NCBI GenBank assembly: GCA_030827745.1 | Contig: JAURDW010000013.1 | Span: 1 to 39,879, forward strand | Origin: Candidatus Poseidonia sp. | GTDB taxonomy: Archaea > Thermoplasmatota > Poseidoniia > Poseidoniales > Poseidoniaceae | Direction of reading: 5' to 3' | Length of the DNA: 39,879 bases | Shown here: one piece after another, positions 13,348-25,519 of the stretch | How positions within the stretch are numbered: position 1 is the stretch's first letter | How the letters are laid out: every line of letters starts with the position of its first letter | Notes under the pieces: generated by a model | What the model was told of the DNA's origin: nothing | Database searches by the model: none | Seen by the model: the letters and a program-made list of their open reading frames with translations, nothing else | Made by a program: the position numbers and the translations under genes

Positions 13348-13827
13348 ATGTCAGGACTCGAATCGGTGCCCAGTGCCTACCTCTCCATTGGTTTCTTGAC
13401 GGTTGTCGGCATCATCATGCCGCTGACAAATTTCATCATCACGTGGTTGGTTCGCCCGAAGGTGGACCCGGCTCGTCCGCACGTGACCCGTTCGTACCTC
13501 CTTGAGGGCTACGAACGCGACCACAGCCTCTACCCTCGTCGGCTCACGACGTTTGAGTGCGGCAGTGAACCGGTGGGTGAAGCGATGATTCAATTCCACT
13601 TCCAGTATTACTGGTACGCCATCATCTTCCTTGTTTTTGACGTGGCGTTCATGTTCCTCGTGCTCGGCGGCATGGTCGCCGCTGACGCTACGGCGGTTGA
13701 CGTCGTTGACCGTGCGAGCGCTGTTGAGCAGGCGACCGACGCCCTGCTCATCCTCGGGGCCTTCTTCGCCACGATGTCACTCGGCGTTTGGTACGTGTTC
13801 CGCAAGCGAGGCCGCATTTACATTTGA
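13348..13827 (+). CDS. nuoA: Complex I subunit A (chain 3)
   Basis: A 159-residue membrane subunit of the proton-pumping NADH-dehydrogenase-like complex; it helps form the quinone-access region with NuoH. Three transmembrane helices are evident (about residues 13-35, 85-108, 130-150). The family signature is clear: FECGSEPVGEAMIQFHFQYY, followed by FLVFDVAFMFL with the conserved acidic residue in the second helix. First gene of a 12-gene plus-strand operon. The start at ATG 13348 follows GAAGG; another ATG at 13325 is out of frame. The stop codon forms part of the Shine-Dalgarno sequence of nuoB. Confidence 0.95.
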   Translation: MSGLESVPSAYLSIGFLTVVGIIMPLTNFIITWLVRPKVDPARPHVTRSYLLEGYERDHSLYPRRLTTFECGSEPVGEAMIQFHFQYYWYAIIFLVFDVAFMFLVLGGMVAADATAVDVVDRASAVEQATDALLILGAFFATMSLGVWYVFRKRGRIYI

Positions 13828-13832
13828 GGTGA
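13825..13832 (+). promoter_or_regulatory. Stop/Shine-Dalgarno fusion TGAGGTGA (nuoA/nuoB)
   Basis: The nuoA stop TGA is the first part of TGAGGTGA, a perfect match to the archaeal anti-SD. It lies 6 nt before the nuoB ATG and fixes that start. Confidence 0.7.
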
Positions 13833-13838
13833 GTTGAG

Positions 13839-14432
13839 ATGGCAGGACAACAAGAGAATTATGCAGCCTTCAACAGCCGTGCCCTCGTTGAAATGGTCGG
13901 CGACGTGACCGACGAGGCTCTCAAAGCAACGAAGATCAAACAATTCCTGAGTGTGCTCGCTGGCCGCTACTTCAATTGGGCGGGCCGCAAGTCGTTGTTC
14001 ACTCTCCACTTGGGCATCAAGTGTTGCGCCATTGAGATGGCCGCCGCTGCGACACCCCGCTTCGACGGCGACCGCTTCGGCGTGCTGTTCCGTTCCTCTC
14101 CACGGCAATCGGATGTGCTGCTGGTCAACGGCCCCATCACGAAAAAATTCGCTGACAAAGTCGTTCGTCTCTGGGAGCAAATGCCCGAGCCCAAGTACTG
14201 CATCGCCATGGGCGAATGCGCCATCTCTGGCGGCCCCTATTTCCAGTCGTACAACGTTCTTGAGGGCGTTGACACCGTGATTCCCGTGGATGTGTACATC
14301 CCCGGCTGCCCCCCTCGCCCCGAGGCCCTCATCGACGGTTTCGGTCTTTTGCGTGAAAAAATCATTCGTATCGGCGCAGCACCCAGCAGCGGCCGCAAGG
14401 GCGACAAGCCCGTTATTGTCGGGGAGGACTGA
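13839..14432 (+). CDS. nuoB: Complex I subunit B (N2 FeS cluster subunit)
   Basis: A 197-residue peripheral subunit that holds the terminal [4Fe-4S] cluster N2 and passes electrons to quinone. The four ligands are present in the family pattern: the adjacent pair Cys62-Cys63 (GIKCCAIEM), Cys127 (MGECAISGG) and Cys157 (IPGCPPRPEAL). The N-terminal 50 residues are less conserved. The downstream nuoC start lies 2 nt after the stop. Since NuoE/F/G are not encoded in the operon, NuoB and NuoI form the only visible FeS chain. Confidence 0.96.
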   Translation: MAGQQENYAAFNSRALVEMVGDVTDEALKATKIKQFLSVLAGRYFNWAGRKSLFTLHLGIKCCAIEMAAAATPRFDGDRFGVLFRSSPRQSDVLLVNGPITKKFADKVVRLWEQMPEPKYCIAMGECAISGGPYFQSYNVLEGVDTVIPVDVYIPGCPPRPEALIDGFGLLREKIIRIGAAPSSGRKGDKPVIVGED

Positions 14433-14434
14433 CC

Positions 14435-15088
14435 GTGGGCATGCGCGTGACCAACGAACAAGCCGAGACGGCTGCCGAAGCCGCCGTCAAGAAGGTCAAC
14501 GATCGCTTCAGCAGCGCAGACGTGACCGTCACCGTGGAGCACCACGCCAACGCTCACAAGATGGCCTTTGTCCGGGCCCATGTTCCTGCCCAGCATTGGA
14601 CGGCCGTCGCCAAGCATCTCCGTTTTGATGTCGGCGTGAACTACTGCTCGATGGTGACCGGCACGCACTACCCCGAAGGCGGGGACGAGCGAGGATGGGA
14701 AGTGGTGTACCACCTCATGCGCCAACCCGTCACCGACCAAGCCCCCAACACCAACACCGTCCACGTTGCTGAGTCGCTCCAAGGTGACGATATTCCGCTC
14801 GAAGTTGAGGTCGTCATCACGCTTCCCCAAACCTCGACCCCTACCGTGCCCAGCGTTCAGAGCATTTGGGTCGGCGCAGACTGGAACGAGAAAGAGACTT
14901 GGGACCTCGTCGGCATTCGGTTTGAGGGCCACGAAAACATGCACCGTGTGCTCAACCCTCACGACAGTCCTGAGGGCTTTCACCCGCTGCAAAAGCAACA
15001 CAAAATTCGCTACCACGATTTCAATGAAATGTACGACGACGCCCAAGGCTTCGGACGGAAACCAACCGACGAGGGACGGGTTAAGTGA
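14435..15088 (+). CDS. nuoC: Complex I subunit C (30 kDa)
   Basis: A 217-residue peripheral-arm subunit that packs against NuoD and NuoB. The C-terminal half carries the family signature ADWNEKETWDLVGIRFEGHE followed by RVL; the N-terminal half has the expected alpha/beta pattern (FDVGVNYCSMVTGTHYP). It is separate from NuoD, unlike the fused NuoCD of enterobacteria. Start GTG 14435 lies 6 nt after GGGGAGG at the end of nuoB; ATG 14441, two codons later, is possible. Confidence 0.93.
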   Translation: MGMRVTNEQAETAAEAAVKKVNDRFSSADVTVTVEHHANAHKMAFVRAHVPAQHWTAVAKHLRFDVGVNYCSMVTGTHYPEGGDERGWEVVYHLMRQPVTDQAPNTNTVHVAESLQGDDIPLEVEVVITLPQTSTPTVPSVQSIWVGADWNEKETWDLVGIRFEGHENMHRVLNPHDSPEGFHPLQKQHKIRYHDFNEMYDDAQGFGRKPTDEGRVK

Positions 15089-15093
15089 GGTGA
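15086..15093 (+). promoter_or_regulatory. Stop/Shine-Dalgarno fusion TGAGGTGA (nuoC/nuoD)
   Basis: The nuoC stop codon begins the SD; spacing to the nuoD ATG is 4 nt. Confidence 0.7.
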
Positions 15094-15097
15094 GAAT

Positions 15098-16237
15098 ATG
15101 GCACAAATGTGGATTACAATGGGCCCCCAGCATCCAATGACGCACGGTTTGTGGACCTTGCGAGTCAAGGTCGACGGCGAGACCGTCGTTGACACCGAAG
15201 CCGAACTCGGCTACATTCACCGCGGCGTGGAAAAAATCGCAGAATCTCGCGATTTCACTCAAATCACGCCCTATTGCGACCGACTTTGTTACGTGAGCGC
15301 TATGACGTGGGCCAATTCCTACATTTACGCCGCTGAAGACCTGTTGGAGGTTGAAGTGCCTGAGCGCGCAGAGTACATTCGTCTCATCGCCGCCGAGTGC
15401 CAACGCTTGGCTTCCCATCTGATGTGGCTCGGGGCTTACGGTCCCGACATTGGAAGTCTGACTTTGATGACCTGGTGCATGCGGGACCGCGAAATGTTCC
15501 TCGACCTCCTCCAAGAACTCGGTGGCTCCCGAATGCACTACAACTACCCCCGCGTCGGTGGTGTGAAGCGCGACATCCCCATCGGTTTCGCCGACCGCTT
15601 GGTGGCGAAGGTCAAGCTGTTTGAACACCGCATCGACGAATACGAAATGCTTCTCGATGAGTCCACCATTTGGCTGGTCCGCCTCCAGGGTGTCGGCTAC
15701 GCCAAGGCCGAAGACATGGTCAATGCGGGTGTGTCCGGCCCCAACATTCGAGCCGCTGGCGTCAATTACGACGTGCGTTGGGCCCACCCCTACTCCGTTT
15801 ACGACCAGGTTGATTGGGAGCCCGCTGTGGAAAAGCCGACTTCGGTGAAGGGCGCCGATTGCTATGACCGGTACCGTGTTCGGATGGAAGAAATGCGTCA
15901 GTCATGCCGCATGATTCTCGATGCCATTGAGAAGATTCCAGGTGGCAAGAACACGAACTACGCCAACGGCGACGAGATGATTCTCGCCAAAGCACCCACC
16001 CGAGCACCCGAAGGCGCAACAGGTTTCTCGCACTACGAATGCACCCGCGGAGCCTCCCAGTTCTACATCCAAGGCGGCGGCGATGGCCGTGGGAAGAACC
16101 CTTACCGCCTGTCGATTCGCTCCCCGATGTTCATCACCATTCCCTACGTCGCCAAGACGATGATCGGTTACAAGGTCGCCGATATTCCTGCCATCATGGG
16201 CAGTTTTGACCCGTGCATTGGGGAGACCGACCGTTGA
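15098..16237 (+). CDS. nuoD: Complex I subunit D (49 kDa, quinone-site subunit)
   Basis: A 379-residue peripheral subunit, homologous to the large subunit of NiFe hydrogenases, that forms the quinone pocket with NuoB. The N-terminal signature GPQHPMTHG (His12, His16) is intact and is followed by ELGYIHRGVEKIAE and CDRLCYVSAM, which contains the conserved quinone-site Tyr region. The C-terminus ends in the family phrase GSFDPCIGETDR. The hydrogenase NiFe-binding CxxC pairs are absent, which separates it from Ech/Mbh large subunits. Length is normal. It is preceded and followed by stop/SD fusions. Confidence 0.96.
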   Translation: MAQMWITMGPQHPMTHGLWTLRVKVDGETVVDTEAELGYIHRGVEKIAESRDFTQITPYCDRLCYVSAMTWANSYIYAAEDLLEVEVPERAEYIRLIAAECQRLASHLMWLGAYGPDIGSLTLMTWCMRDREMFLDLLQELGGSRMHYNYPRVGGVKRDIPIGFADRLVAKVKLFEHRIDEYEMLLDESTIWLVRLQGVGYAKAEDMVNAGVSGPNIRAAGVNYDVRWAHPYSVYDQVDWEPAVEKPTSVKGADCYDRYRVRMEEMRQSCRMILDAIEKIPGGKNTNYANGDEMILAKAPTRAPEGATGFSHYECTRGASQFYIQGGGDGRGKNPYRLSIRSPMFITIPYVAKTMIGYKVADIPAIMGSFDPCIGETDR

Positions 16238-16242
16238 GGTGA
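16235..16242 (+). promoter_or_regulatory. Stop/Shine-Dalgarno fusion TGAGGTGA (nuoD/nuoH)
   Basis: The nuoD stop codon begins the SD; spacing to the nuoH ATG is 4 nt. Confidence 0.7.
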
Positions 16243-16246
16243 GATC

Positions 16247-17764
16247 ATGGACGACAAGTACGATTTGGTTGGCTTCTTCTTGAGCAAGGACGGTTTGCTT
16301 CGGTCGGGCATCACCGGCGCCCTCGAAGGCACACCGCTCGAATCAAGTTCAGGCGCCCTCTCCTTCGGCGTCGCCACGTTTGCTCTGGTCAACATCGTCT
16401 TCCTGTTGTTGTTTTTCTCGCAGTTTGCGATTCTTTGGATTGAACGCAAAGCCGTCGCTCGCATGCAAGACCGGTACGGTGCCACGACCGCCCTCCGTTC
16501 GCTTTGGGTCGGTGAAAACGGCGTCACCGCCGGCGAGTGGTGGAACATGTTGCCCTTTGGACTGGGCAAACCCATCGGAGCGGTCAACAAATGGTTGAAC
16601 AAGAATTTCGGCAACCGGGACGAGAACTTTGCCACGGTGGACCGTGTCAACAACCGTTCTTGGATGGGCAAAACCATCGTTCCGGGCTTCTTCCAAAACG
16701 TCGCTGACGGGATGAAGTTCCTCGTCAAAGAACACATGGTGCCTCAGCGAGCCGACCGTCTTATCTTTGAAGTCTCTCCCTTCCTCATCGTGTCTTCGAC
16801 GCTGTTGATTTTGGGCATGATTCCGCTCTCCAGCGGTATTTACGCCACCAACCCCGACCTCTCCATTCTCTACGCTATCGCCATCTTTGGTATCGCACCG
16901 ATCGGCGTCTTTTTCGCCGGTTGGTCGTCCAACAACAAATACACCCTGATTGGGGGCATTCGCTCAGCGGCCCAACTCACGGCTTACGAGATTCCACTCC
17001 TGCTGACGCTGTTGTCGGTCGCCATTCTCTCGGGCACCTTCAACATCGTTGAGAGCATCCACTTCCAACATTCTGCAGGCGCATGGAACATCTTCCTGAT
17101 GCCGCTTGGAGCGGCGTTGTTCCTCGTGACGATGATCGCAGAAGTGGAACGTGTGCCCTTTGACATGCCCGAAGCCGAAGCCGAACTGGTTGAAGGCTGG
17201 TGGACGGAATATGGCGGAATGCGATTTGGCATGCTTTTCATGGCCGAGTACATCCGCACGTATGCGGCTTGTTTCTTGTTCACGCACTTTTTCCTCGGTG
17301 GATGGCACCTGCCCTTCCACGGTACCATCGGCTCTCTGCCGGTGGTCGGTGAAGCCTACCTGTTGATTCCAGGCGCCATCATGACCCTCCTGAAGTCGTG
17401 GTTGGTCTTCTTGGTCGTCTTCGTTTGGGCTCGCTTCGCCTTGGCCCGCATTCGCACGGACCAAATCCTCGAGTTTGGATGGCGCATGCTGCTTCCTTTG
17501 GCCGTGTTGCAAGTTGTTCTCGCCCTTGTGTACCGATTGTACCTCTTCAACCCCGATGGCATGTCGGCCCAAAACGATGTGGCTGGTGGCATGGCGTGGG
17601 ACGCCTTCGGCATCCCTTACCTCGTGCCCTTGCTCACCACGTTGTTCTGGCTGGGCGTCTTCTGGGTCTACCTCAACGATGAGGACAAGTCAGCGATGTC
17701 GGAACGCATGTTCCACGTCCATACCGTAGAGCCCGCGGGAACGGTTGTCCCGGGGCAGGAGTGA
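16247..17764 (+). CDS. nuoH: Complex I subunit H (ND1-like), with an enlarged first cytoplasmic loop
   Basis: A 505-residue membrane subunit that forms the quinone chamber and the start of the proton path; the family is usually about 320-350 residues. The first core helix (about 42-64) ends in ERKAVARMQDRYGA (from Glu66). In typical NuoH only about 15 residues then lead to the ...QxxADGxKxxxKE helix; here about 70 residues (80-147, with GEWWNMLPFGLGKPIG and many Trp/Asn) intervene before GFFQNVADGMKFLVKEHMVP. The remaining core motifs are present (EVERVPFDMPEAEAELVEGW, ARIRTDQILEFGW). The C-terminus also extends past the last helix by about 30 residues. The enlarged loop lies at the membrane/peripheral-arm interface. 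It is followed by a stop/SD fusion into nuoI. Confidence 0.94.
   Translation: MDDKYDLVGFFLSKDGLLRSGITGALEGTPLESSSGALSFGVATFALVNIVFLLLFFSQFAILWIERKAVARMQDRYGATTALRSLWVGENGVTAGEWWNMLPFGLGKPIGAVNKWLNKNFGNRDENFATVDRVNNRSWMGKTIVPGFFQNVADGMKFLVKEHMVPQRADRLIFEVSPFLIVSSTLLILGMIPLSSGIYATNPDLSILYAIAIFGIAPIGVFFAGWSSNNKYTLIGGIRSAAQLTAYEIPLLLTLLSVAILSGTFNIVESIHFQHSAGAWNIFLMPLGAALFLVTMIAEVERVPFDMPEAEAELVEGWWTEYGGMRFGMLFMAEYIRTYAACFLFTHFFLGGWHLPFHGTIGSLPVVGEAYLLIPGAIMTLLKSWLVFLVVFVWARFALARIRTDQILEFGWRMLLPLAVLQVVLALVYRLYLFNPDGMSAQNDVAGGMAWDAFGIPYLVPLLTTLFWLGVFWVYLNDEDKSAMSERMFHVHTVEPAGTVVPGQE
16502..16684 (+). other. Insertion in NuoH between core helices 1 and 2
   Basis: Residues about 86-146 of NuoH have no counterpart in the E. 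coli-type pattern, where RYGPNR is followed closely by LQxxAD. The segment is polar and Trp/Asn-rich with one possible short amphipathic helix (NKWLNKNFG). By homology it faces the cytoplasm next to the quinone entry site. Boundaries are approximate because they come from remembered family motifs, not an alignment. Confidence 0.6.
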
Positions 17765-17769
17765 GGTGA
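17762..17769 (+). promoter_or_regulatory. Stop/Shine-Dalgarno fusion TGAGGTGA (nuoH/nuoI)
   Basis: The nuoH stop codon begins the SD; 5 nt separate it from ATG 17775. This selects 17775 over upstream non-ATG starts as the nuoI start. Confidence 0.7.
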
Positions 17770-17774
17770 ACACC

Positions 17775-18749
17775 ATGCCCATGCATCCACACGCACAGCC
17801 CAACTTCAGAAACCTGTTTTGGTACCCGTTCAAAATCACCTTGATCACAGCACTGCGGACCTTCCCGTTCATCGGCAAGCGTTTTGGCAAGCGATTGGGG
17901 AGCTACCACAACACTTCCCACCCCGAATTTTTGGACGACGGTAGCCGTGCACGTGCAGCCGCTACCGCCGACATGAATGACGTGACCCGTCAAGAGTTTG
18001 CGCCGGACCGCGTGACCTCGGACCTCAAACCAACCTTGTGGAAACCTCAAACGGTGCAGTACCCCTACGAGCGCCTTGAGGACATGGAACCTTGGCTCTT
18101 CGTCCCTGGGAATTACAACGGACGTATTGGCGTGATTTGGGAGACCTGCACCGCCTGCAAGATGTGCGTCAACGTGTGCCCAAACGATTGTTTGCACATG
18201 ACCACCGAATTGCGCGTGGATGTCCTCGACAACGCAGAAGGCGAAAACGCAGGCTTTGGGGCTGACTTGGAGGTGGGCAAATTCGCAGCCGTTGAAGTCC
18301 CTGAAGTCAAGGCCACGCTTGACGGCTTCAACCACGTCACGGCCCACACCAGCACGCCTGAGGAGTGGCGCTTTGCCGAAGTGCTCGACCTCTCCGGCGA
18401 CTCCGCCACCGTCCGTTGGAACGATTCGGGCGAAGAAGCCGTTGTGGCGACCAACGAACTCTTCCCGGCCGACGACCAGATCGTCTCAGGGCGCATCGAC
18501 CTCGGCCGCTGCATGTTCTGCGGCTTGTGCATGGAAGCCTGCGGTTTTACCTCGTTCTTCATGACCAACGAATACGACGGCATGTCCGGATTCACTCGCC
18601 AAGACCTGTGGTTTGATGCCTCCCGCACCCGTGTTCTGCCCGGCGTGCACCAAGAAGCGGTGGACGCCGAACTGGCGAAGCGAGCCTCAAAGGAGCGTGA
18701 CAAGCGAGCCAAGAAGGCTGCCAAGGAAGCCGCCAAGGGGGACGCCTGA
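17775..18749 (+). CDS. nuoI: Complex I subunit I (two [4Fe-4S] ferredoxin-like), with a domain inserted between the cluster motifs
   Basis: A 324-residue peripheral subunit that carries electrons through clusters N6a and N6b; the family is usually about 160-220 residues. The motifs are Cys125-x2-Cys128-x2-Cys131-x3-Cys135 (CTACKMCVNVCP) and Cys246-x2-Cys249-x2-Cys252-x3-Cys256 (CMFCGLCMEACGF; Gly replaces the usual Pro after the last Cys). Normally about 30 residues separate the motifs; here 110 do. The extra part contains an SH3/Tudor-like beta barrel pattern (about residues 197-231). The N-terminus (about 1-110) is also longer than usual, with an amphipathic stretch that probably lies on the membrane. 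The C-terminus is a Lys/Ala/Glu-rich helix. An alternative start is ATG 17781. Confidence 0.93.
   Translation: MPMHPHAQPNFRNLFWYPFKITLITALRTFPFIGKRFGKRLGSYHNTSHPEFLDDGSRARAAATADMNDVTRQEFAPDRVTSDLKPTLWKPQTVQYPYERLEDMEPWLFVPGNYNGRIGVIWETCTACKMCVNVCPNDCLHMTTELRVDVLDNAEGENAGFGADLEVGKFAAVEVPEVKATLDGFNHVTAHTSTPEEWRFAEVLDLSGDSATVRWNDSGEEAVVATNELFPADDQIVSGRIDLGRCMFCGLCMEACGFTSFFMTNEYDGMSGFTRQDLWFDASRTRVLPGVHQEAVDAELAKRASKERDKRAKKAAKEAAKGDA
18237..18470 (+). other. SH3/Tudor-like insertion in NuoI
   Basis: Residues about 155-232 separate the two FeS motifs. Within them, RFAEVLDLSGDSATVRWND followed by EEAVVATNELFP reads as alternating short beta strands with a conserved Trp, the pattern of small SH3/Tudor/KOW barrels. 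This is pattern recognition only. In a normal ferredoxin fold the equivalent is one short hairpin. Confidence 0.5.
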
Positions 18750-18750
18750 A

Positions 18751-19026
18751 ATGGACGTCGCCAGTGCAGCCGAAACCGGCGTGTTCTTTTTGTTCGCCGC
18801 CATCACGTTGGGTGGAGCACTCGGCCTCATCTTCGCCCAACGCGTGGCTCACTCCATGCTCTCGCTGATTTTCTGCTTCATGGCGGTCTCGGGCATTTTC
18901 ATTCTGCTTGGCGCTGAATTCCTTGCGGCCATTCAAATTCTCGTCTATCTGGCGAGTGTTGGGTTGGTGGTGCTGTTCGGTATCATGTTGACCCGTCGTC
19001 AAATCCTTGAGGAGGACTTTGAATGA
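18751..19026 (+). CDS. nuoJ: Complex I subunit J, N-terminal half
   Basis: A 91-residue membrane protein matching the first half of NuoJ (ND6). It has three helices and the conserved stretch GAEFLAAIQILVYLASVGLVV, which contains the pi-bulge helix involved in coupling. The start ATG 18751 follows AAGGGGG at the end of nuoI. The stop overlaps the next start as ATGA, and an internal GAGGAGG serves that next gene. The split into two genes also occurs in some methanogen fpo operons. Confidence 0.88.
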   Translation: MDVASAAETGVFFLFAAITLGGALGLIFAQRVAHSMLSLIFCFMAVSGIFILLGAEFLAAIQILVYLASVGLVVLFGIMLTRRQILEEDFE

Positions 19027-19301
19027 AGTTCATCTCGCTCTTCACCCGACTGGGCCTTCTCGCTCTCGGGTTCATTTTGGTCGCCGCCGTCAACGCAGAC
19101 GGCGTCTGGTCCAACCCCGGTGCCGAAGAGCCCACGACCTCGGGCCCAGATGGCCTCGCAGACACTTTGCTCAACGACTGGGGTTTTGCTCTGCTCATTC
19201 TCGGTCTGTTGATGTCCATGGCCATGATGGGTGCTGCCTACCTTGTTCGGGACGAGCGGATGGAAAACTTGCTTTGGGAGTTCGGAGGTGAAGAAGAATG
19301 A
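19023..19301 (+). CDS. nuoJ: Complex I subunit J, C-terminal half
   Basis: A 92-residue protein with two transmembrane helices (about 6-25 and 53-74) around a polar extracytoplasmic loop. This is what remains of NuoJ after the first three helices. GLADTLLNDWGFALLILGLLM resembles the NuoJ helix 4-5 region. The C-terminal GGE codons supply a perfect GGAGGTGA Shine-Dalgarno (19284-19291) for nuoK, and the stop overlaps the nuoK start (ATGA). The order, the tandem overlaps and the lack of another nuoJ support the assignment. Confidence 0.78.
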   Translation: MKFISLFTRLGLLALGFILVAAVNADGVWSNPGAEEPTTSGPDGLADTLLNDWGFALLILGLLMSMAMMGAAYLVRDERMENLLWEFGGEEE

Positions 19302-19600
19302 TTGATCCAGCATGGGTCTCGGGCCTTTCGGCCTTGTTGTTCGTCATCGGTTTGGCCGGTGCCTTCACTCGAAAGAACGCTATCATTGTCTTGATGTGCA
19401 TTGAGTTGATGCTCAACGCTGCCAACATGCAGTTCGCTGCGGCAGCCGTGCACCACGGCGACACGACGGGATGGGTCTACACCATCTTCGCGATTGCGAT
19501 CGCAGCCAGCGAAGTGGCCATCGGTTTGGCCATCTTCTTGGCGATGTACGGGCAACACGAATCGATCACGCTGGACGATGTGAACGTCCTGAAGAACTGA
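19298..19600 (+). CDS. nuoK: Complex I subunit K (ND4L-like)
   Basis: A 100-residue, three-helix membrane subunit of the proton channel next to NuoJ and NuoN. The two membrane glutamates needed for proton transfer fall at Glu36 (LMCIELMLNAANMQF) and Glu72 (AIAASEVAIGLAI), the same numbers as in E. coli NuoK. Length is normal. The start overlaps the previous stop by 4 bp. Confidence 0.95.
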   Translation: MIDPAWVSGLSALLFVIGLAGAFTRKNAIIVLMCIELMLNAANMQFAAAAVHHGDTTGWVYTIFAIAIAASEVAIGLAIFLAMYGQHESITLDDVNVLKN

Positions 19601-19609: not shown

Positions 19610-22186
19610 ATGGCGGGTACAGGCAGTTCAGAAATCGTTCACAGCACGGCGGCGCAGTACGCGCCTTACATCCTTCTCCTTCCGATGTTGGCCTTCCCGG
19701 TCATCCTTTTCCTCGGCAAGATGCTCAACGGACAAAAGGTTTGGAAAGAGACGCTCAAGGAAGGCGGCCTGATTGCCTTGCCCGTGATGGGGGCCAGTTT
19801 GGCGCTCTCGCTGTGGCTCATCAGCGATTTCATCGGGGCCTACGGCGGCGTTGACAAACTCTCCGATTGGACGTGGTTCACCTCGAGCATGTGGAACTCA
19901 GGCGTGGTGACCACCGAGATCACCTTTGGATTTGGCGTTCATATCGACCACATCACCGTGATGTTGCTTTTCATCGCCTCCTTCCTTTGTTTGCTCATCA
20001 ACACCTTCGCCATCGGCTACATGAACACCGATCCCATCAACGACAACCGAAACCACCGCTTCTATGCCGAGTTCGTGTTGTTCTGCTCCGGTATGCTCGG
20101 GATGGTGCTCGCCGATTCGTTCCTCTGGCTGTTCATTTTCTGGGAATTGATGGGCCTGTGTTCCTACTTGCTCATCGGGTTCTACTACGAACGCCCGAGT
20201 GCCGCTTACGCCGCTAAAAAGGCGTTCTTGACCACCCGCGTAGGCGACGTTTTCCTCATGGTTGGCCTCGCCGTTCTTTGGGACCTCTTCGGCTCTCTTG
20301 ACTACGCCGTGGTCTTCAACGAATACAACATCGACAAGGTCGCCGCTTCCAACCCCGGCACCCTCGCCTGGGCGCTCGGTTTGATGTTCATCGGAGCGGT
20401 TGGTAAGTCGGCTCAATTCCCCCTCCATGTTTGGCTTCCCGACGCTATGGAAGGTCCAACACCTGTTTCGGCCCTTATCCACGCTGCGACTATGGTCAAC
20501 GCCGGCCTCTACCTCGTGGCCCGCATGTTCCCCTTCTTCGGTGCCGAATCCATGCACGGCGAATTGGCTGACTTGGCCTTCATCATCGCCGCCATTGGTG
20601 GAACGACTGCCGTCATGGCCGCCGCCATCGCTTTTGTTCAGCACGACCTCAAGAAGGTGCTCGCCTATTCCACGATGTCGCAATTGGCTTACATCTTCAC
20701 CGGGCTTGGTGCTGCCCTCTACCTTGCCAACACCCTTCACTGGCATGAGTACTTCGCTGATGGCACCAAGAACCCCGATTACTACGTCAACCACGCCATT
20801 GTCATTGTCGCCTTCGGTGCTGCCCTCTTCCATCTGTTCAACCACGCCATGGCCAAAGGCATGCTCTTCATGGCCAGTGGAGCCGTCATTCACGAGGTGC
20901 ATCATGCGCACCATCACCTCCACCCTCACGACGACCATCACCACGAAGAAGACCCGAAAGAACTGCTCATGCTCGCGAACTACCTTTCTGAGACGGGCCA
21001 ATCCGTGTTCGGCTTCTTCAACGCCATCGACCTTGATCAATCGGGAGAGATTGACACCTACGAGTTCCAAAAAGCCCTGAAGGAAGCGAACATCGCTGAC
21101 CTTCCGCCTTGGGAAATGCAGTCGCTCATGAAGGCGCTCGACATGGACGGCAACGGCCGGATCAACGTGCCCGAATTGGAGTTGACCTTGGGTCGGGTTC
21201 ACCTCGCTTCCCTTGCTGGCGACGACCACGGCGACCACCACGACGAGTTCGATGCCCAGTCGATGGACAACATGGGAGGCTTGGCCTCCAAGATGCCGCT
21301 CACCGCCACCGCCATGCTAGTCGGTTCACTCTCCATCATGGGCTTCCCGCTCATCGGTGGGTTTTGGTCTAAGGAAGGCATCATCGCCAACACTTGGCGT
21401 GTGGCGCTGGAAGACCCTCGCTTCTTCTACCCCGCCCTTTGCGTGCTCTTGGGTGCGGGCATGACCGGTTTCTACATGTCGCGCATGTGGCTGAAGACCT
21501 TCGCTGGATCACCCCAAACCGACGTCGCTGCCCATGTTCATCCGACGAACACGTGGATCAAGACGCCGCTGTTTATCTTGACCTTCGTCAGCCTTGCCGG
21601 CATCATTTTCGCCAGCATGGGCTTTACTCACTGGGCTCCCGACATCGGCTACGGCTTGATGTCCGACCACGGTGGTTTGCTCGGTGGTTTGGTTTACGAA
21701 TTGGAGCATGTCTTCGCCAATGAGAAACCCTTCTTTTTCATTCTGACCTACGTGGCGCTGTTCATCGGCGCTGTGGTTGGCCCGGGTTTGGCGCTCTCCT
21801 TGTACGGGGGCAAGCTCGACGAAGGTGAAGCCGTGAAACCGTGGTTCGGTCCCGTTCTCGCTCTGAACGAGGCCATCAAGGGACGGTACCATTGGGACAA
21901 CTCGGCTTTCGGCAAATCCGGCTTTGCAACAGCCCTCGAGAACCGGCTTTATTTTGACCACTACTACGACATGGCCATGCTGAAAATCGTCGCTGCGTTC
22001 TCCAACAAAGCCGCTGAAGCCGACACCAGCGTCATCGACGGTGCTGTCAAGACCGTTGAGCGCACCTCCCAACAACTCTCGTCGACCCTCCGCTCGCTGA
22101 CCACCGGGTCGGCCAGGGATTACATTCTGATGGCAGCGTTGGGAACCTTGATGCTCTTTGCCCTGATTTGGGGGGTGGTCGCTTGA
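19610..22186 (+). CDS. nuoL: Complex I subunit L (proton-pumping, ND5-like) carrying an inserted EF-hand pair
   Basis: An 858-residue antiporter-like subunit; usual length is about 610-690. The proton-path residues are present: Glu179 (FWELMGLCSYLL), Lys266 (VGKSAQFPLHVWLPDA), the His-containing helix LFHLFNHAMAKGMLFMASG, and the Lys in GFWSKEGI. Between AVIHEVHHA and MGGLASKMPL, where relatives have about 15 residues, lie about 120 extra ones. These are a His/Asp-rich stretch (428-448), two canonical EF-hand loops (Asp474-Glu485 and Asp511-Glu522) with flanking helices, and a second His/Asp stretch (538-548). By homology this loop (between helices 11 and 12) is cytoplasmic. The C-terminus has the lateral-helix region and a final helix. 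The stop overlaps the likely TTG start of nuoM. Confidence 0.95.
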   Translation: MAGTGSSEIVHSTAAQYAPYILLLPMLAFPVILFLGKMLNGQKVWKETLKEGGLIALPVMGASLALSLWLISDFIGAYGGVDKLSDWTWFTSSMWNSGVVTTEITFGFGVHIDHITVMLLFIASFLCLLINTFAIGYMNTDPINDNRNHRFYAEFVLFCSGMLGMVLADSFLWLFIFWELMGLCSYLLIGFYYERPSAAYAAKKAFLTTRVGDVFLMVGLAVLWDLFGSLDYAVVFNEYNIDKVAASNPGTLAWALGLMFIGAVGKSAQFPLHVWLPDAMEGPTPVSALIHAATMVNAGLYLVARMFPFFGAESMHGELADLAFIIAAIGGTTAVMAAAIAFVQHDLKKVLAYSTMSQLAYIFTGLGAALYLANTLHWHEYFADGTKNPDYYVNHAIVIVAFGAALFHLFNHAMAKGMLFMASGAVIHEVHHAHHHLHPHDDHHHEEDPKELLMLANYLSETGQSVFGFFNAIDLDQSGEIDTYEFQKALKEANIADLPPWEMQSLMKALDMDGNGRINVPELELTLGRVHLASLAGDDHGDHHDEFDAQSMDNMGGLASKMPLTATAMLVGSLSIMGFPLIGGFWSKEGIIANTWRVALEDPRFFYPALCVLLGAGMTGFYMSRMWLKTFAGSPQTDVAAHVHPTNTWIKTPLFILTFVSLAGIIFASMGFTHWAPDIGYGLMSDHGGLLGGLVYELEHVFANEKPFFFILTYVALFIGAVVGPGLALSLYGGKLDEGEAVKPWFGPVLALNEAIKGRYHWDNSAFGKSGFATALENRLYFDHYYDMAMLKIVAAFSNKAAEADTSVIDGAVKTVERTSQQLSSTLRSLTTGSARDYILMAALGTLMLFALIWGVVA
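20900..21268 (+). other. EF-hand pair with His-rich flanks inserted into NuoL
   Basis: Residues about 431-553 of NuoL. Loop 1 is DLDQSGEIDTYE and loop 2 is DMDGNGRINVPE: both have acidic or Asn/Ser ligands at positions 1, 3, 5, 9 and Glu at 12, Gly at 6 and Ile at 8. The helices before and after (SVFGFFNAI, FQKALKEANI, EMQSLMKAL, ELELTLGRV) complete a calmodulin-like pair. Clusters HHAHHHLHPHDDHHHEED and DDHGDHHDE flank it. The reading frame is continuous and base composition matches the gene. Confidence 0.9.
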
Positions 22187-23820
22187 CGACGGATTGGATT
22201 TCCCTGCCGTTGGTGGGCATGCCGCTCATCAGCAGCGTTGTTTTGCTGGCCTATGTGGCCTACGTTTCTCCAGCAGCGCGTGAACGGATGGGCCCCACCG
22301 TGCGTTTGGTGACGCTCGCTCTTTCCTTGGCGATGTTGGTGCTGACCACGGCGATGTTCCTTGGTGACAATTACATCGAGGGTACGCTGGATTGGACAAC
22401 GCTCTCCTTTGGGTCGTTCAATTACGAGTTCCAATACGAATGGATTGAATCCTTGGGCATTCACTGGTCGGTTGGCATGGACGCTCTGTCCTTCCCCATG
22501 GTGTGGTTGACGACCTTCCTGTTGCCCATCACGATCGTGGCGACCTGGCACGAAAAGAACGCCGCTGTCTACTTCCCGCTGGTCCTGATGATGGGTGGGG
22601 CGCTCATTGGCGTCTTCGTTGCGCTGGACCTGTTCATGTTCTACGTGTTCTGGGAACTGACCTTGATTCCGATGTTCTTCCTCATCCTCAAGTGGGGAGG
22701 TCACGACCGAAAATACGCCTCTCAGAAGTTCTTCATCTACACCTTCACCGCCTCGGTCATCATGCTCCTCGGCTTGGTCACGGTGTATTTCCTGCAACCC
22801 GAAAACCTCGCGCATGCCGGCTCATGGACGGGACGCACGTTCGACATCCCAACCCTGACGGCGCACGCACAATCCGCCAATGCCGGTGGCGAGTGGTTCC
22901 TCGGTGTCGGCCTCCAGAAAGTTCTCTTCGTGATGTTGATGATCGGCTTCCTCGTTAAGCTGCCCTCGGTGCCTTTCCACACGTGGCTGCCCGACGCTCA
23001 CGTTCAGGCACCAACCGGCGGCTCCATGCTGCTGGCTGGTGTGATGTTGAAAATGGGTGCTTACGGCATGTTCCGTCTCCCCTTGGCGTTCTTCCCCCAC
23101 GCTGCCGAACACTTCCAGTTTTGGCTGCTAGCCCTCGGCATGGTTTCCCTTGTCTGGGGCGCCGTGGTTTGTTTGGGCCAAACCAACCTCAAGAAAATGG
23201 TCGCTTACTCCTCGGTGTCTCACATGGGGGTCATCCTCATCGGCATCGCCACCATGCAACCTTTGGGTTGGGCAGCAGCCCTCTTCATGATGTTCGCCCA
23301 CGGCATCATCAGCCCCATGCTCTTTGCCGTCTGCGGGGCCTTCAAGCATCACTACCACAGCATGGAAATCGGGGCCATGCGAGGCATGGCCAAGCATTCT
23401 CCGTGGCTCGCCACATCGATGATGTTCGCTTGGATGGCTTCGCTCGGGTTGCCGCTCTTGGCCGGTTTCGTGGCCGAGTTGATGATGTTCCTCGCCCTCT
23501 GGCACTTCATCGCTGCCGAAGGGTGGAGCGTGCTTTGGATGGTCGGGCCGGCCTTCGTGCTCGCCATCACCGCCGCCTACTACCTGTGGTCCATGCAGCG
23601 TACGATCTTCGAGGGCGGCGAAGCAACGCAACCCCCCGCCAGCCTTCACGGCGAGCCTGTGCCCGACATCACCGATGCAGAGAAGTGGGCCATGGTCATC
23701 ATGGCGGCCTTCACCATCCTCTTTGGTGTCATGCCTTGGATTGCCCTCGACATGATGAACGGTTGGACGGTGGCGTTCTTTGAAACGCTGTTGATTCCAA
23801 TTCTGACGGGAGGTGCCTGA
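22183..23820 (+). CDS. nuoM: Complex I subunit M (proton-pumping, ND4-like)
   Basis: A 545-residue antiporter-like subunit. Its key residues are Glu158 (FWELTLIPMFFLI) and Lys259 (GFLVKLPSVPFHTWLPDAHVQ), followed by APTGGSMLLAGVMLKMGAYG and TNLKKMVAYSSVSHMG; the family signatures are unmistakable. About 35 residues between helices (LAHAGSWTGRTFDIPTLTAH onward) form a longer extracytoplasmic loop than in E. coli. The start is probably TTG 22183, overlapping the nuoL stop (TTGA) and following GGGGGTGG; no ATG is closer than codon 12 (GMPLISS). Confidence 0.94.
   Translation: MTTDWISLPLVGMPLISSVVLLAYVAYVSPAARERMGPTVRLVTLALSLAMLVLTTAMFLGDNYIEGTLDWTTLSFGSFNYEFQYEWIESLGIHWSVGMDALSFPMVWLTTFLLPITIVATWHEKNAAVYFPLVLMMGGALIGVFVALDLFMFYVFWELTLIPMFFLILKWGGHDRKYASQKFFIYTFTASVIMLLGLVTVYFLQPENLAHAGSWTGRTFDIPTLTAHAQSANAGGEWFLGVGLQKVLFVMLMIGFLVKLPSVPFHTWLPDAHVQAPTGGSMLLAGVMLKMGAYGMFRLPLAFFPHAAEHFQFWLLALGMVSLVWGAVVCLGQTNLKKMVAYSSVSHMGVILIGIATMQPLGWAAALFMMFAHGIISPMLFAVCGAFKHHYHSMEIGAMRGMAKHSPWLATSMMFAWMASLGLPLLAGFVAELMMFLALWHFIAAEGWSVLWMVGPAFVLAITAAYYLWSMQRTIFEGGEATQPPASLHGEPVPDITDAEKWAMVIMAAFTILFGVMPWIALDMMNGWTVAFFETLLIPILTGGA
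23808..23815 (+). promoter_or_regulatory. Shine-Dalgarno GGGAGGTG for nuoN
   Basis: It lies inside the last codons of nuoM, 6 nt before ATG 23822, and selects that ATG over an in-frame GTG at 23813. Confidence 0.6.
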
Positions 23821-23821
23821 G

Positions 23822-25519
23822 ATGGAGAAAATTGAACCCTTTGGCGAAGGTTTTGTCTTGGCGCTGGCACCGGAATTCATCCTTGTTATCGGCTTGTTTA
23901 CCTTGATGATCGTCCCCAACCTTGGCGACGCTAAGTTCCGAATCCCGATGACTCAGATCCGCATCCCATGGTTCATGGGTGGGAAGCGAGGCACCCTCGA
24001 CAGCGACCCACGCCTTCCCGGCTTGTTCGCCACGGTGTTCCTCTCGTTGGCCTTTGGGTTGACCGCCATGTCCTTCCTCAACGGCATGACCCGTACCCAA
24101 ATCGTCTCAGGCGACAACGTCATGCTGCAGGTTGACGAGTTCAGCCGAATGTTTGAGCTCATCTTCTTTGGCGCCCTGGCCCTTGCAAGCGCCGCCTCGG
24201 TCAACCGCCTTCCGGCCACCTCAAGGGCTGACCGAAGCGCAAGCGGCCTGTACAACAACCGCCGTCAAGTGGACTTCTACATCTTGCTCATCACCACGGG
24301 CCTTGGTATGTCGGTCGTTGCGCTGGCGCAGGACTTGTTCTTGCTCTTCATCGGGCTTGAGTTGGCGTCGTTTTCGACCTACATCCTCGTGGCCTTCATG
24401 AAAGAAAGCAAGGAAGGCACCGAGGCCGGCATGAAGTACTTCATCGTCGGGTCCGTCGCTTCCGGTGTTGGTCTTTACGGCCTGTCGTTGCTCTACCTGT
24501 GGTCGGGCTCCCTCCAGTTCACGGAACTTACCAGCGCCTTTGCAGCGAACGGCATGGAGTCGCTTCCGCTCATCGCTTTGGGCATGCTCCTCGTCGGCTT
24601 CGGATTCAAGGTCAGCGCCGCACCGTTCCACTTTGCAGCCCCTGATGCCTACGCCGGAGCGACCGCCCCGGTGGCCGGTGTTCTCGCCACGGCCAGCAAG
24701 GCCATGGGTGTGCTCGGTTTGCTTCGCATCTTGCTGGTGGTCGCCTCGCCCGAAGCGACCGAAGGTGCAGCGGTTTGGCTGGTTGCTCTTGGTGTGCTCT
24801 CGGTGGTCACGATGACTTGGGGCAACCTCGCTGCGCTTGGCTCCACCAACCCCAAGCGTATGCTCGCCTACTCCTCGGTGGCCCACGCCGGCTACATGCT
24901 GGCAGCCATCACGGCCATCGGTGCCCTCAACTGGGAGGAAGGTCACGTGAATTTGAGCAACGATGCGGCGTTGGTGGTTGTCACGGCGCTCATCTTCCAC
25001 CTCACGGTGCTGGTGTGCTTCAAACTCGGTGCCTTCCTCGTGCTCTCCTTGCTCGAATCTGAAAAAGGAGGCCACACGCTCGAATCGCTTGGTGGCTTGG
25101 CCAAGCGCGACCCCTTCCTCGCCGTTGCCATGTTCATCTTCATGATGTCGCTGGCCGGTGTTCCGCCGCTCTCCGGCTTCGTCTCGAAGTTGCTTGTGAT
25201 CATGGGTATCGTCAAGGTGGCGTTGCTCGACGTGACGGTCAACAGCGATTTGGCCTTCAGCGACCTCCACTGGGTGTGGTTCCTCGCCCTTGCGATGGTC
25301 ATCAACTCCGCCATCTCGGTGTTTTACTACCTGCGCGTTGGCCTTGTGATGTACTTCCACGAGCCTGAGGAAGGTCGGGAAGGACCCCTCCCGTCCGGCG
25401 GACCAGTTCGCCTCGCCATCCTCGCTTGTTTGGTCACCACGGTGTTCTTCGGCGTCGGCGCTGGTCAACTCATTGCCTTGGCTGAATCGGCTGCCAACGC
25501 ACTGGTCGGCGCATGGTGA
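23822..25519 (+). CDS. nuoN: Complex I subunit N (proton-pumping, ND2-like)
   Basis: A 565-residue antiporter-like subunit, longer than the usual 450-500. Key residues are Glu180 (FIGLELASFSTYILVAF) and Lys263 (GFGFKVSAAPFHFAAPDAY), with KRMLAYSSVAHAGYML further on. The extra length is in polar loops near the N-terminus (about 36-66, with FRIPMTQIRIPWFMGG) and around 135-160. Last gene of the operon; a 79-bp gap with no clear promoter separates it from the aIF1A gene. No NuoE/F/G, FpoF or FpoO gene follows. Confidence 0.93.
   Translation: MEKIEPFGEGFVLALAPEFILVIGLFTLMIVPNLGDAKFRIPMTQIRIPWFMGGKRGTLDSDPRLPGLFATVFLSLAFGLTAMSFLNGMTRTQIVSGDNVMLQVDEFSRMFELIFFGALALASAASVNRLPATSRADRSASGLYNNRRQVDFYILLITTGLGMSVVALAQDLFLLFIGLELASFSTYILVAFMKESKEGTEAGMKYFIVGSVASGVGLYGLSLLYLWSGSLQFTELTSAFAANGMESLPLIALGMLLVGFGFKVSAAPFHFAAPDAYAGATAPVAGVLATASKAMGVLGLLRILLVVASPEATEGAAVWLVALGVLSVVTMTWGNLAALGSTNPKRMLAYSSVAHAGYMLAAITAIGALNWEEGHVNLSNDAALVVVTALIFHLTVLVCFKLGAFLVLSLLESEKGGHTLESLGGLAKRDPFLAVAMFIFMMSLAGVPPLSGFVSKLLVIMGIVKVALLDVTVNSDLAFSDLHWVWFLALAMVINSAISVFYYLRVGLVMYFHEPEEGREGPLPSGGPVRLAILACLVTTVFFGVGAGQLIALAESAANALVGAW

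Follow-up and report, generated by a model that had tools for sequence, protein, structure and literature searches.

Complex I and ATP synthase are generally seen as regulated via redox state, proton force, nucleotides and accessory subunits. Type II NAD(P)H dehydrogenases (NDH-2) are non-pumping flavoproteins with no known relationship to the complex I subunit NuoL. For some NDH-2 that carry a putative EF-hand, activation by Ca2+ has been proposed (PMC6134880). For the archaeal order Poseidoniales, a paper whose main text does not include the word 'calcium' describes complex I together with an A1AO ATP synthase that bears putative Na+ motifs (PMC6336850), and calcium-binding domains, with a suggested role in signalling, are found in protein sets specific to the Poseidoniaceae and the Thalassarchaeaceae (PMC9258230). 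A paper on archaeal protein fusions includes none of the terms 'NuoL', 'calcium' or 'EF hand' (PMC11237513). Here, we describe an EF-hand pair built into NuoL of Candidatus Poseidonia sp., an uncultured archaeon of marine group II. The stretch analysed, referred to as the window, is the 39,879 nucleotide contig JAURDW010000013.1 (C24) of GenBank assembly GCA_030827745.1. An initial annotation, made from the sequence alone, had proposed a calmodulin-like EF-hand pair in this subunit and knew of no precedent. The open-licence literature, as judged from titles and the beginnings of abstracts, likewise yielded no EF-hand domain in a complex I, in NuoL or in an A-type ATP synthase, and a description elsewhere is possible.

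The host gene, nuoL (19610–22186; this and all other window features given are on the + strand), is an open reading frame encoding 858 aa. The product matched Pfam PF00361 (Proton_antipo_M, 212 bits) and PF00662, and the NCBIfam model NDH_I_L with 437.7 bits (cut-off 407.5), and was below the threshold for the equivalog PRK06590 (462 versus 556). These family hidden Markov models (HMMs), together with the location in a nuo operon, identify it as the distal antiporter-like, proton-pumping subunit of an archaeal complex I, as had been proposed. Positions 20900–21268 encode residues 431–553 in frame, and the EF-hand pair covers approximately residues 447–533 (20948–21208), as delimited by Pfam, the modelled secondary structure and alignment A1. 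EF loop 1, DLDQSGEIDTYE, corresponds to residues 474–485 (21029–21064) and EF loop 2, DMDGNGRINVPE, to residues 511–522 (21140–21175), exactly where they had been placed. The linker between the EF-hands includes an LPPW motif (residues 498–501; 21101–21112), and reading of the codons revealed His/Asp-rich stretches ahead of the pair (residues 428–447; 20891–20950) and after it (residues 537–547; 21218–21250).

Four EF-hand families were above their Pfam cut-offs in the full-length protein, namely EF-hand_5 (33.7 bits, cut-off 25.9), EF-hand_1 (32.7, cut-off 25.4), EF-hand_6 (31.1, cut-off 25) and the pair model EF-hand_7 (31.7, cut-off 30), which aligned with residues 468–523. EF-hand_8 was below its cut-off of 28 in the full-length protein (24.3) and above it when the 123 aa piece was used in isolation (32.3). 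Other than antiporter and EF-hand families, Pfam returned only a sub-cut-off match to Dockerin_1. The best sequence match for the 123 aa piece in the PDB was a plant calcium-dependent protein kinase (CDPK; 2aao_A, E 2.1e-11), and the next matches were mostly calmodulins. At the level of sequence, the presence of a genuine EF-hand pair in the loop between transmembrane helices (TM) 11 and 12 is confirmed. The AlphaFold model of the full-length protein was poor, with a mean predicted local distance difference test (pLDDT) score of 47.9. The EF stretch (residues 451–530) is among the better parts, with 10-residue blocks at 62–72, and was modelled with helices and short strands at residues 480–482 and 517–519, as expected for an EF pair. 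In the model, a helix-loop-helix pair with a short beta contact extends over residues 466–535, where pLDDT is mostly 62–72 and falls to 43 over residues 531–540. The full model is too poor for the EF domain to be placed relative to the pump, and only local secondary structure was used. Foldseek matches of the model to NuoL chains, with a root mean square deviation of approximately 16–25 Å, were not used as evidence.

The cytoplasmic location predicted initially for the TM11–TM12 loop fits the hydropathy segments, the K/R-rich loops and homology. The hydropathy scan leaves some helices unresolved, and TM7 and TM10 were assigned from the known fold. In Mrp and complex I, helix HL is on the cytoplasmic side and the beta-hairpins are on the periplasmic side (PMC7419157). 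The insert starts about 20 residues past the TM11 histidines (H408 and H412) and ends about 35 residues before the TM12 lysine (K588). These three residues and E179, K266 and H291 are invariant or nearly so in alignment A2. By the Escherichia coli numbering, we take them to be the proton path residues, and the claim that these are retained stands on that basis.

In what follows, genera are denoted by g and families by f; g1 is Candidatus Poseidonia, the genus of the window, in family f1, and f2 is the sister family, which includes g14, here taken as a member of the Thalassarchaeaceae. Among 30 g1 genomes searched, the NuoL loop could be read in 28, and all 29 copies read have the EF pair, two of them from the bin G009. 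The remaining two genomes had either no NuoL match (G008) or only a fragment starting at query residue 543, past the EF pair (G018). The source genome is a single metagenome assembly (1.74 Mb in 117 contigs, 81.54 % complete) and a stop codon breaks the frame in a single copy of the 29 (G026), as might be seen if the insert were an assembly or annotation artefact. However, the architecture is identical in 28 genomes of the genus, the same nuoL genes occur in named records from separate projects, and the frame in the window is open with no internal stop, leaving the probability of an artefact close to nil. A chimera at 20.9–21.3 kb, which would have undone the initial annotation, was rejected because the insert is common to the 28 g1 genomes and to records of independent projects. 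Viral contigs were scanned with the EF alignment in view of a possible viral origin; 600 stretches fitted a pattern and none of them encoded a relative.

In both loops, ligand-type residues are retained by all 29 copies at positions 1, 3, 5, 9 and 12 (in one copy, loop 2 is unread at position 5). Degraded loops in relatives, like a lack of EF-hand HMM matches, would have counted against the initial annotation, and neither was seen within the genus. Position 6 is Gly in 29/29 copies for loop 1 and in 28/29 for loop 2, the other having Glu. The ratio of non-synonymous to synonymous differences (pN/pS) was calculated for 27 sequences, with both G009 copies left out due to unread bases. It was 0.144 in the EF loops, equal to that of the NuoL backbone (0.144), 0.234 over the whole EF pair, 0.096 in the first His-rich linker and 0.170 in the second. 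We conclude from these comparisons that the EF-hand pair in g1 NuoL is real and selected. The His/Asp-rich flanks, which are present in most relatives even where there is no EF pair, would suit a sensor or buffer for another divalent metal, in which the flanks and the EF pair together bind Zn2+, Ni2+, Mn2+ or Mg2+. However, both loops close with Glu at position 12 (E485 and E522), the usual bidentate Ca2+ ligand, and in the other carriers described below, NuoJ2 and an oxidase-fold protein, no comparable His run adjoins the modules read. We give this explanation little credence.

Outside g1, the same site was read in 24 NuoL copies without an EF pair. In these near relatives the spacing from HLFNHA to MGGL is 39–65 residues, mostly as a His/Asp-rich stretch, and the figure of about 15 residues originally given for relatives has to be corrected. 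In the class-wide NuoL search (339 genomes), uninterrupted matches spanning the EF pair were, among the matches listed, found only in g1 (29) and g14 (8); this restriction concerns the stronger matches listed, and weaker ones, including those from a third family, lie outside it. All four g14 copies read (L039, L040, L172 and L173) have the EF pair at the same NuoL site. The g14 module lacks the central Gly in the first loop, and one module that was compared is 30 % identical to that of the window. In a host tree of NuoL (33 rows, with the loop cut out), g14 groups within its own family, g1 is placed next to g20, and the EF state requires at least two changes. The module tree (95 columns) is weak. 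In approximately unbiased (AU) tests, a single clade of g1 and g14 NuoL modules was not rejected (p 0.224), and neither were groupings of the g1 NuoL module with the g1 oxidase-fold module (p 0.358), with modules of the ATP synthase subunit a/I (AtpI; p 0.475) or with those of NuoJ2 (p 0.381), nor of g14 NuoL with g14 NuoJ2 modules (p 0.17). In the module trees, the NuoL and oxidase-fold modules of g1 lie apart from each other, though not significantly. The host genes thus look to be inherited vertically, and the inserts may be independent, transferred, or the remains of an old gain that was often lost.

Related EF modules are present on other proteins. A search of the order (318 genomes) with alignment A1 at E <= 1e-15 found matches in 171 genomes from 12 of the 22 genera, comprising all 11 genera of f1 and only g14 in f2. 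The short second NuoJ, NuoJ2, has an EF module at or near its C-terminus in seven g3 genomes, eight g14 genomes and one g19 bin (G116); further NuoJ2 matches among those listed end by query residue 96, ahead of the module. The G116 bin includes both a g14-like NuoJ2 with the EF module and another module that groups with g20 (contigs C39 and C132; L175 and L174). The bin is therefore probably mixed and its NuoJ2 probably a contaminant. Some g14 proteins of this type extend into a further C-terminal stretch (L168, 1699–2724; L169, 1337–2368; L170, 1384–2430), which presumably resembles a helix-hairpin-helix domain. AtpI has an EF pair in all three g20 genomes of a 97-genome search, in which, among the matches listed, none from outside g20 crosses the insert site. 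AtpI EF modules were also found at 24 of 80 loci kept out of 121 found, including the closed marine group II (MG-II) chromosome CM001443.1. The AtpI insert is followed directly by the region alignable to the membrane domain of V-type ATPase subunit I (8wci_P).

The fourth carrier, here called M660, is a membrane protein of about 660 aa, longer in some copies (for example L059, G000:C31, 1411–3393, + strand). It was found in 94 of the 97 genomes searched; 96 gave matches, those in G006 and G016 being only to the EF module of NuoL. A C-terminal EF pair was read in all 11 f1 genera; f2 matches among those listed fall short of the EF part, ending no later than query residue 561. A model of M660 (pLDDT 76.6) gave a cbb3 oxidase as the top Foldseek match (9g83_t, E 3.0e-9, TMt 0.77), and the fold also matched nitric oxide reductase and other heme-copper oxidases. 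A PDB sequence search with the membrane part was empty and Pfam, used on three copies, gave only EF-hand families. His occupies half or more of the 28 rows in only two columns of the membrane part (28/28 and 23/28) and one of the C-terminal linker (27/28). With only two common membrane His columns, M660 cannot hold the usual six heme/copper ligands, and the genome of the window encodes a separate COX1. M660 is predicted to be a non-catalytic relative of the heme-copper oxidases. Tandem EF pairs (two) occur on some oxidase-fold proteins (L180, 252–2555; L062, – strand frame). EF pairs are also found on further proteins, soluble or otherwise, of which some have zinc ribbons, and L063, L064 and L126, which have zinc-ribbon-like N-termini (Pfam on L063), are candidates for soluble calcium-binding partners. 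The genus-wide presence of the insert, the same-site pair in a second family and the related modules on NuoJ, AtpI and the oxidase-fold protein, as they emerge from the comparisons above, all go beyond the initial annotation.

The NuoL and AtpI sites have a feature in common. Where g20 AtpI has the EF pair, AtpI of relatives without one has a short His/Asp-rich linker in 27/27 copies read (g1, g3, g4 and g17), and in both NuoL (g1 and g14) and AtpI (g20) a linker of this kind surrounds the EF pair. These linkers may be tolerant of insertions or may attract them; alternatively, binding of metal may have been among their functions beforehand. Given that most of the 24 NuoL copies without an EF pair have the linker as well, the pairs might be passengers that landed in an insertion-tolerant loop, perhaps via repeat-like codons, and contribute little to pump function. 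We consider this improbable, as it does not sit well with the retention of ligand-type residues in 29/29 copies, constraint on the loops equal to that on the backbone, maintenance throughout the genus, and recurrence on other respiratory subunits.

The linker motif, as [LF]PPW, was found in 28/32 NuoL, 26/26 AtpI, 9/16 NuoJ2, 52/84 M660 and 2/12 other modules, counting distinct modules of at least 75 residues and dropping shorter ones. Its retention hints that this surface may serve for more than the binding of ions. One explanation is that the module serves in docking or as a scaffold, with structural Ca2+ (or Mg2+) bound constitutively, attaching its carriers to a putative common partner and, for example, clustering respiratory complexes; occupancy would then carry no signal. 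That related modules occur on different complexes points to a shared partner, conservation of the motif in NuoL and AtpI exceeds the needs of ion binding alone, and in NuoJ2 and the oxidase-fold protein the module is at or near the C-terminus. However, none of the genera read has all four carriers, so that it is not simply one pair of complexes that the module links in every genus. The four g14 NuoL modules and the g3 NuoJ2 and g1 M660 modules also lack the motif. A purely structural role of this kind is unlikely, though it deserves to be taken seriously.

The explanation that we favour, and hold to be evenly balanced between right and wrong on the sequence data, is that the NuoL EF pair may be a cytoplasmic module for a divalent cation, probably Ca2+, that acts on complex I by modulating either pumping or docking. 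We infer that Ca2+ would be bound in the cell, that a conformational change would follow and that energy coupling would be affected. A rise in cytoplasmic Ca2+ would lead to binding by the EF pair, which would open and change shape. Slung between TM11, with its conserved histidines, and TM12, with its conserved lysine, the pair could pull on these helices and so adjust pumping. Alternatively, the conserved LPPW linker surface could be offered to a partner, and the docking or association of complexes would be adjusted. The NuoL module would be one of a set of related EF modules on respiratory membrane proteins of the Poseidoniales (NuoL, NuoJ, AtpI and the oxidase-fold protein). A protein of the Na+/Ca2+ exchanger family is encoded in the same genome, which makes a low cytoplasmic Ca2+ level plausible.

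Several observations weigh against regulation of complex I by Ca2+. The EF pair is absent from all 24 NuoL copies read from 17 other genera. The EF helices evolve faster than the backbone (pN/pS 0.271 versus 0.144), and pS is 0.63–0.88, near saturation, making all of the pN/pS ratios rough. The linkers are long and His/Asp-rich, and could leave the EF domain without mechanical coupling to the pump. The full-length model is of low confidence (pLDDT 47.9). The module tree does not demonstrate a recent common origin across carriers. Among type II NADH dehydrogenases, there are fungal and Plasmodium examples in which a putative Ca2+-binding domain did not confer activation by Ca2+ (PMC6134880). 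A wider proposal, that the Poseidoniales possess a Ca2+-regulated respiratory chain in which an EF cassette on the cytoplasmic face of NuoL/NuoJ, AtpI and the non-catalytic oxidase-fold protein allows different genera to wire different machines to one intracellular signal, is put forward tentatively, as a possibility that we would not expect to hold in full.

The remainder of the complex I operon surrounds nuoL. From nuoA (13348) to the end of nuoN (25519) the order is nuoA, B, C, D, H, I, J (two frames), K, L, M and N. The genes upstream of nuoL lie at 13348–19600, with Pfam matches for A, B, C, D, H, I and the first J frame. nuoK (19298–19600) was identified by position and size only, and the second nuoJ frame (NuoJ2; 19023–19301) by likeness to NuoJ2 of L125. 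Downstream, nuoM and nuoN (22168–25519) match PF00361 with 225.6 and 192 bits, their naming as M and N coming from the operon order. Known NuoI proteins are generally compact. NuoI of the window (17745–18749) differs, being 334 aa long with about 100 residues separating its two 4Fe-4S motifs. The NuoH frame (16247–17764) encodes 505 aa with a Pfam match only at residues 146–426, i.e. with long N- and C-terminal extensions. NuoJ is split over two frames (18613–19301), the first with Pfam Oxidored_q3 and the second short; the second frame is the part that bears the C-terminal EF pair in g3 and g14.

The presence of EF modules on several respiratory proteins suggests that calcium may influence energy-making in these cells. 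If so, archaea abundant in the surface ocean would be prokaryotes in which cytoplasmic Ca2+ is tied directly to energy coupling, via core subunits of both complex I and ATP synthase. A natural experiment would also be at hand, in that some related genera lack the module and others have it on different complexes, and Ca2+ signalling in archaea becomes testable with a small soluble domain.

Among known systems, the closest to the host protein are NuoL, NdhF and Nqo12. Its match in sequence to 6hum_F extends over most of the subunit (E 3.1e-78), and the family domains and the conserved ionisable residues are shared. The host protein differs in having about 112 residues with the EF pair where the known NdhF 6hum_F has about 4. 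The complex also differs in that no nuoE, nuoF or nuoG was detected among the window frames scanned with Pfam. The insert resembles calmodulin, centrin and the plant CDPK in possessing two 12-residue EF loops with flanking helices (predicted, for the insert), the best match being the CDPK noted above. However, it is a single pair with an LPPW linker, built into a membrane pump. The description 'calmodulin-like' is apt for the EF-hand fold, but not for the soluble, two-lobed architecture with four EF-hands. M660 has the predicted fold of heme-copper oxidase subunit I, but not the six histidines. The protein sets with calcium-binding domains come from the same organisms as those studied here, and the passages describing them name no respiratory subunit (PMC9258230). 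The type II NAD(P)H dehydrogenases of plants (NDB) and fungi (NDE) are similar in combining a putative Ca2+-binding domain with a respiratory dehydrogenase (PMC6134880). However, Pfam did not detect their two Rossmann folds, for FAD and NAD(P)H, in NuoL, and in the window protein the EF domain sits in the pumping arm.

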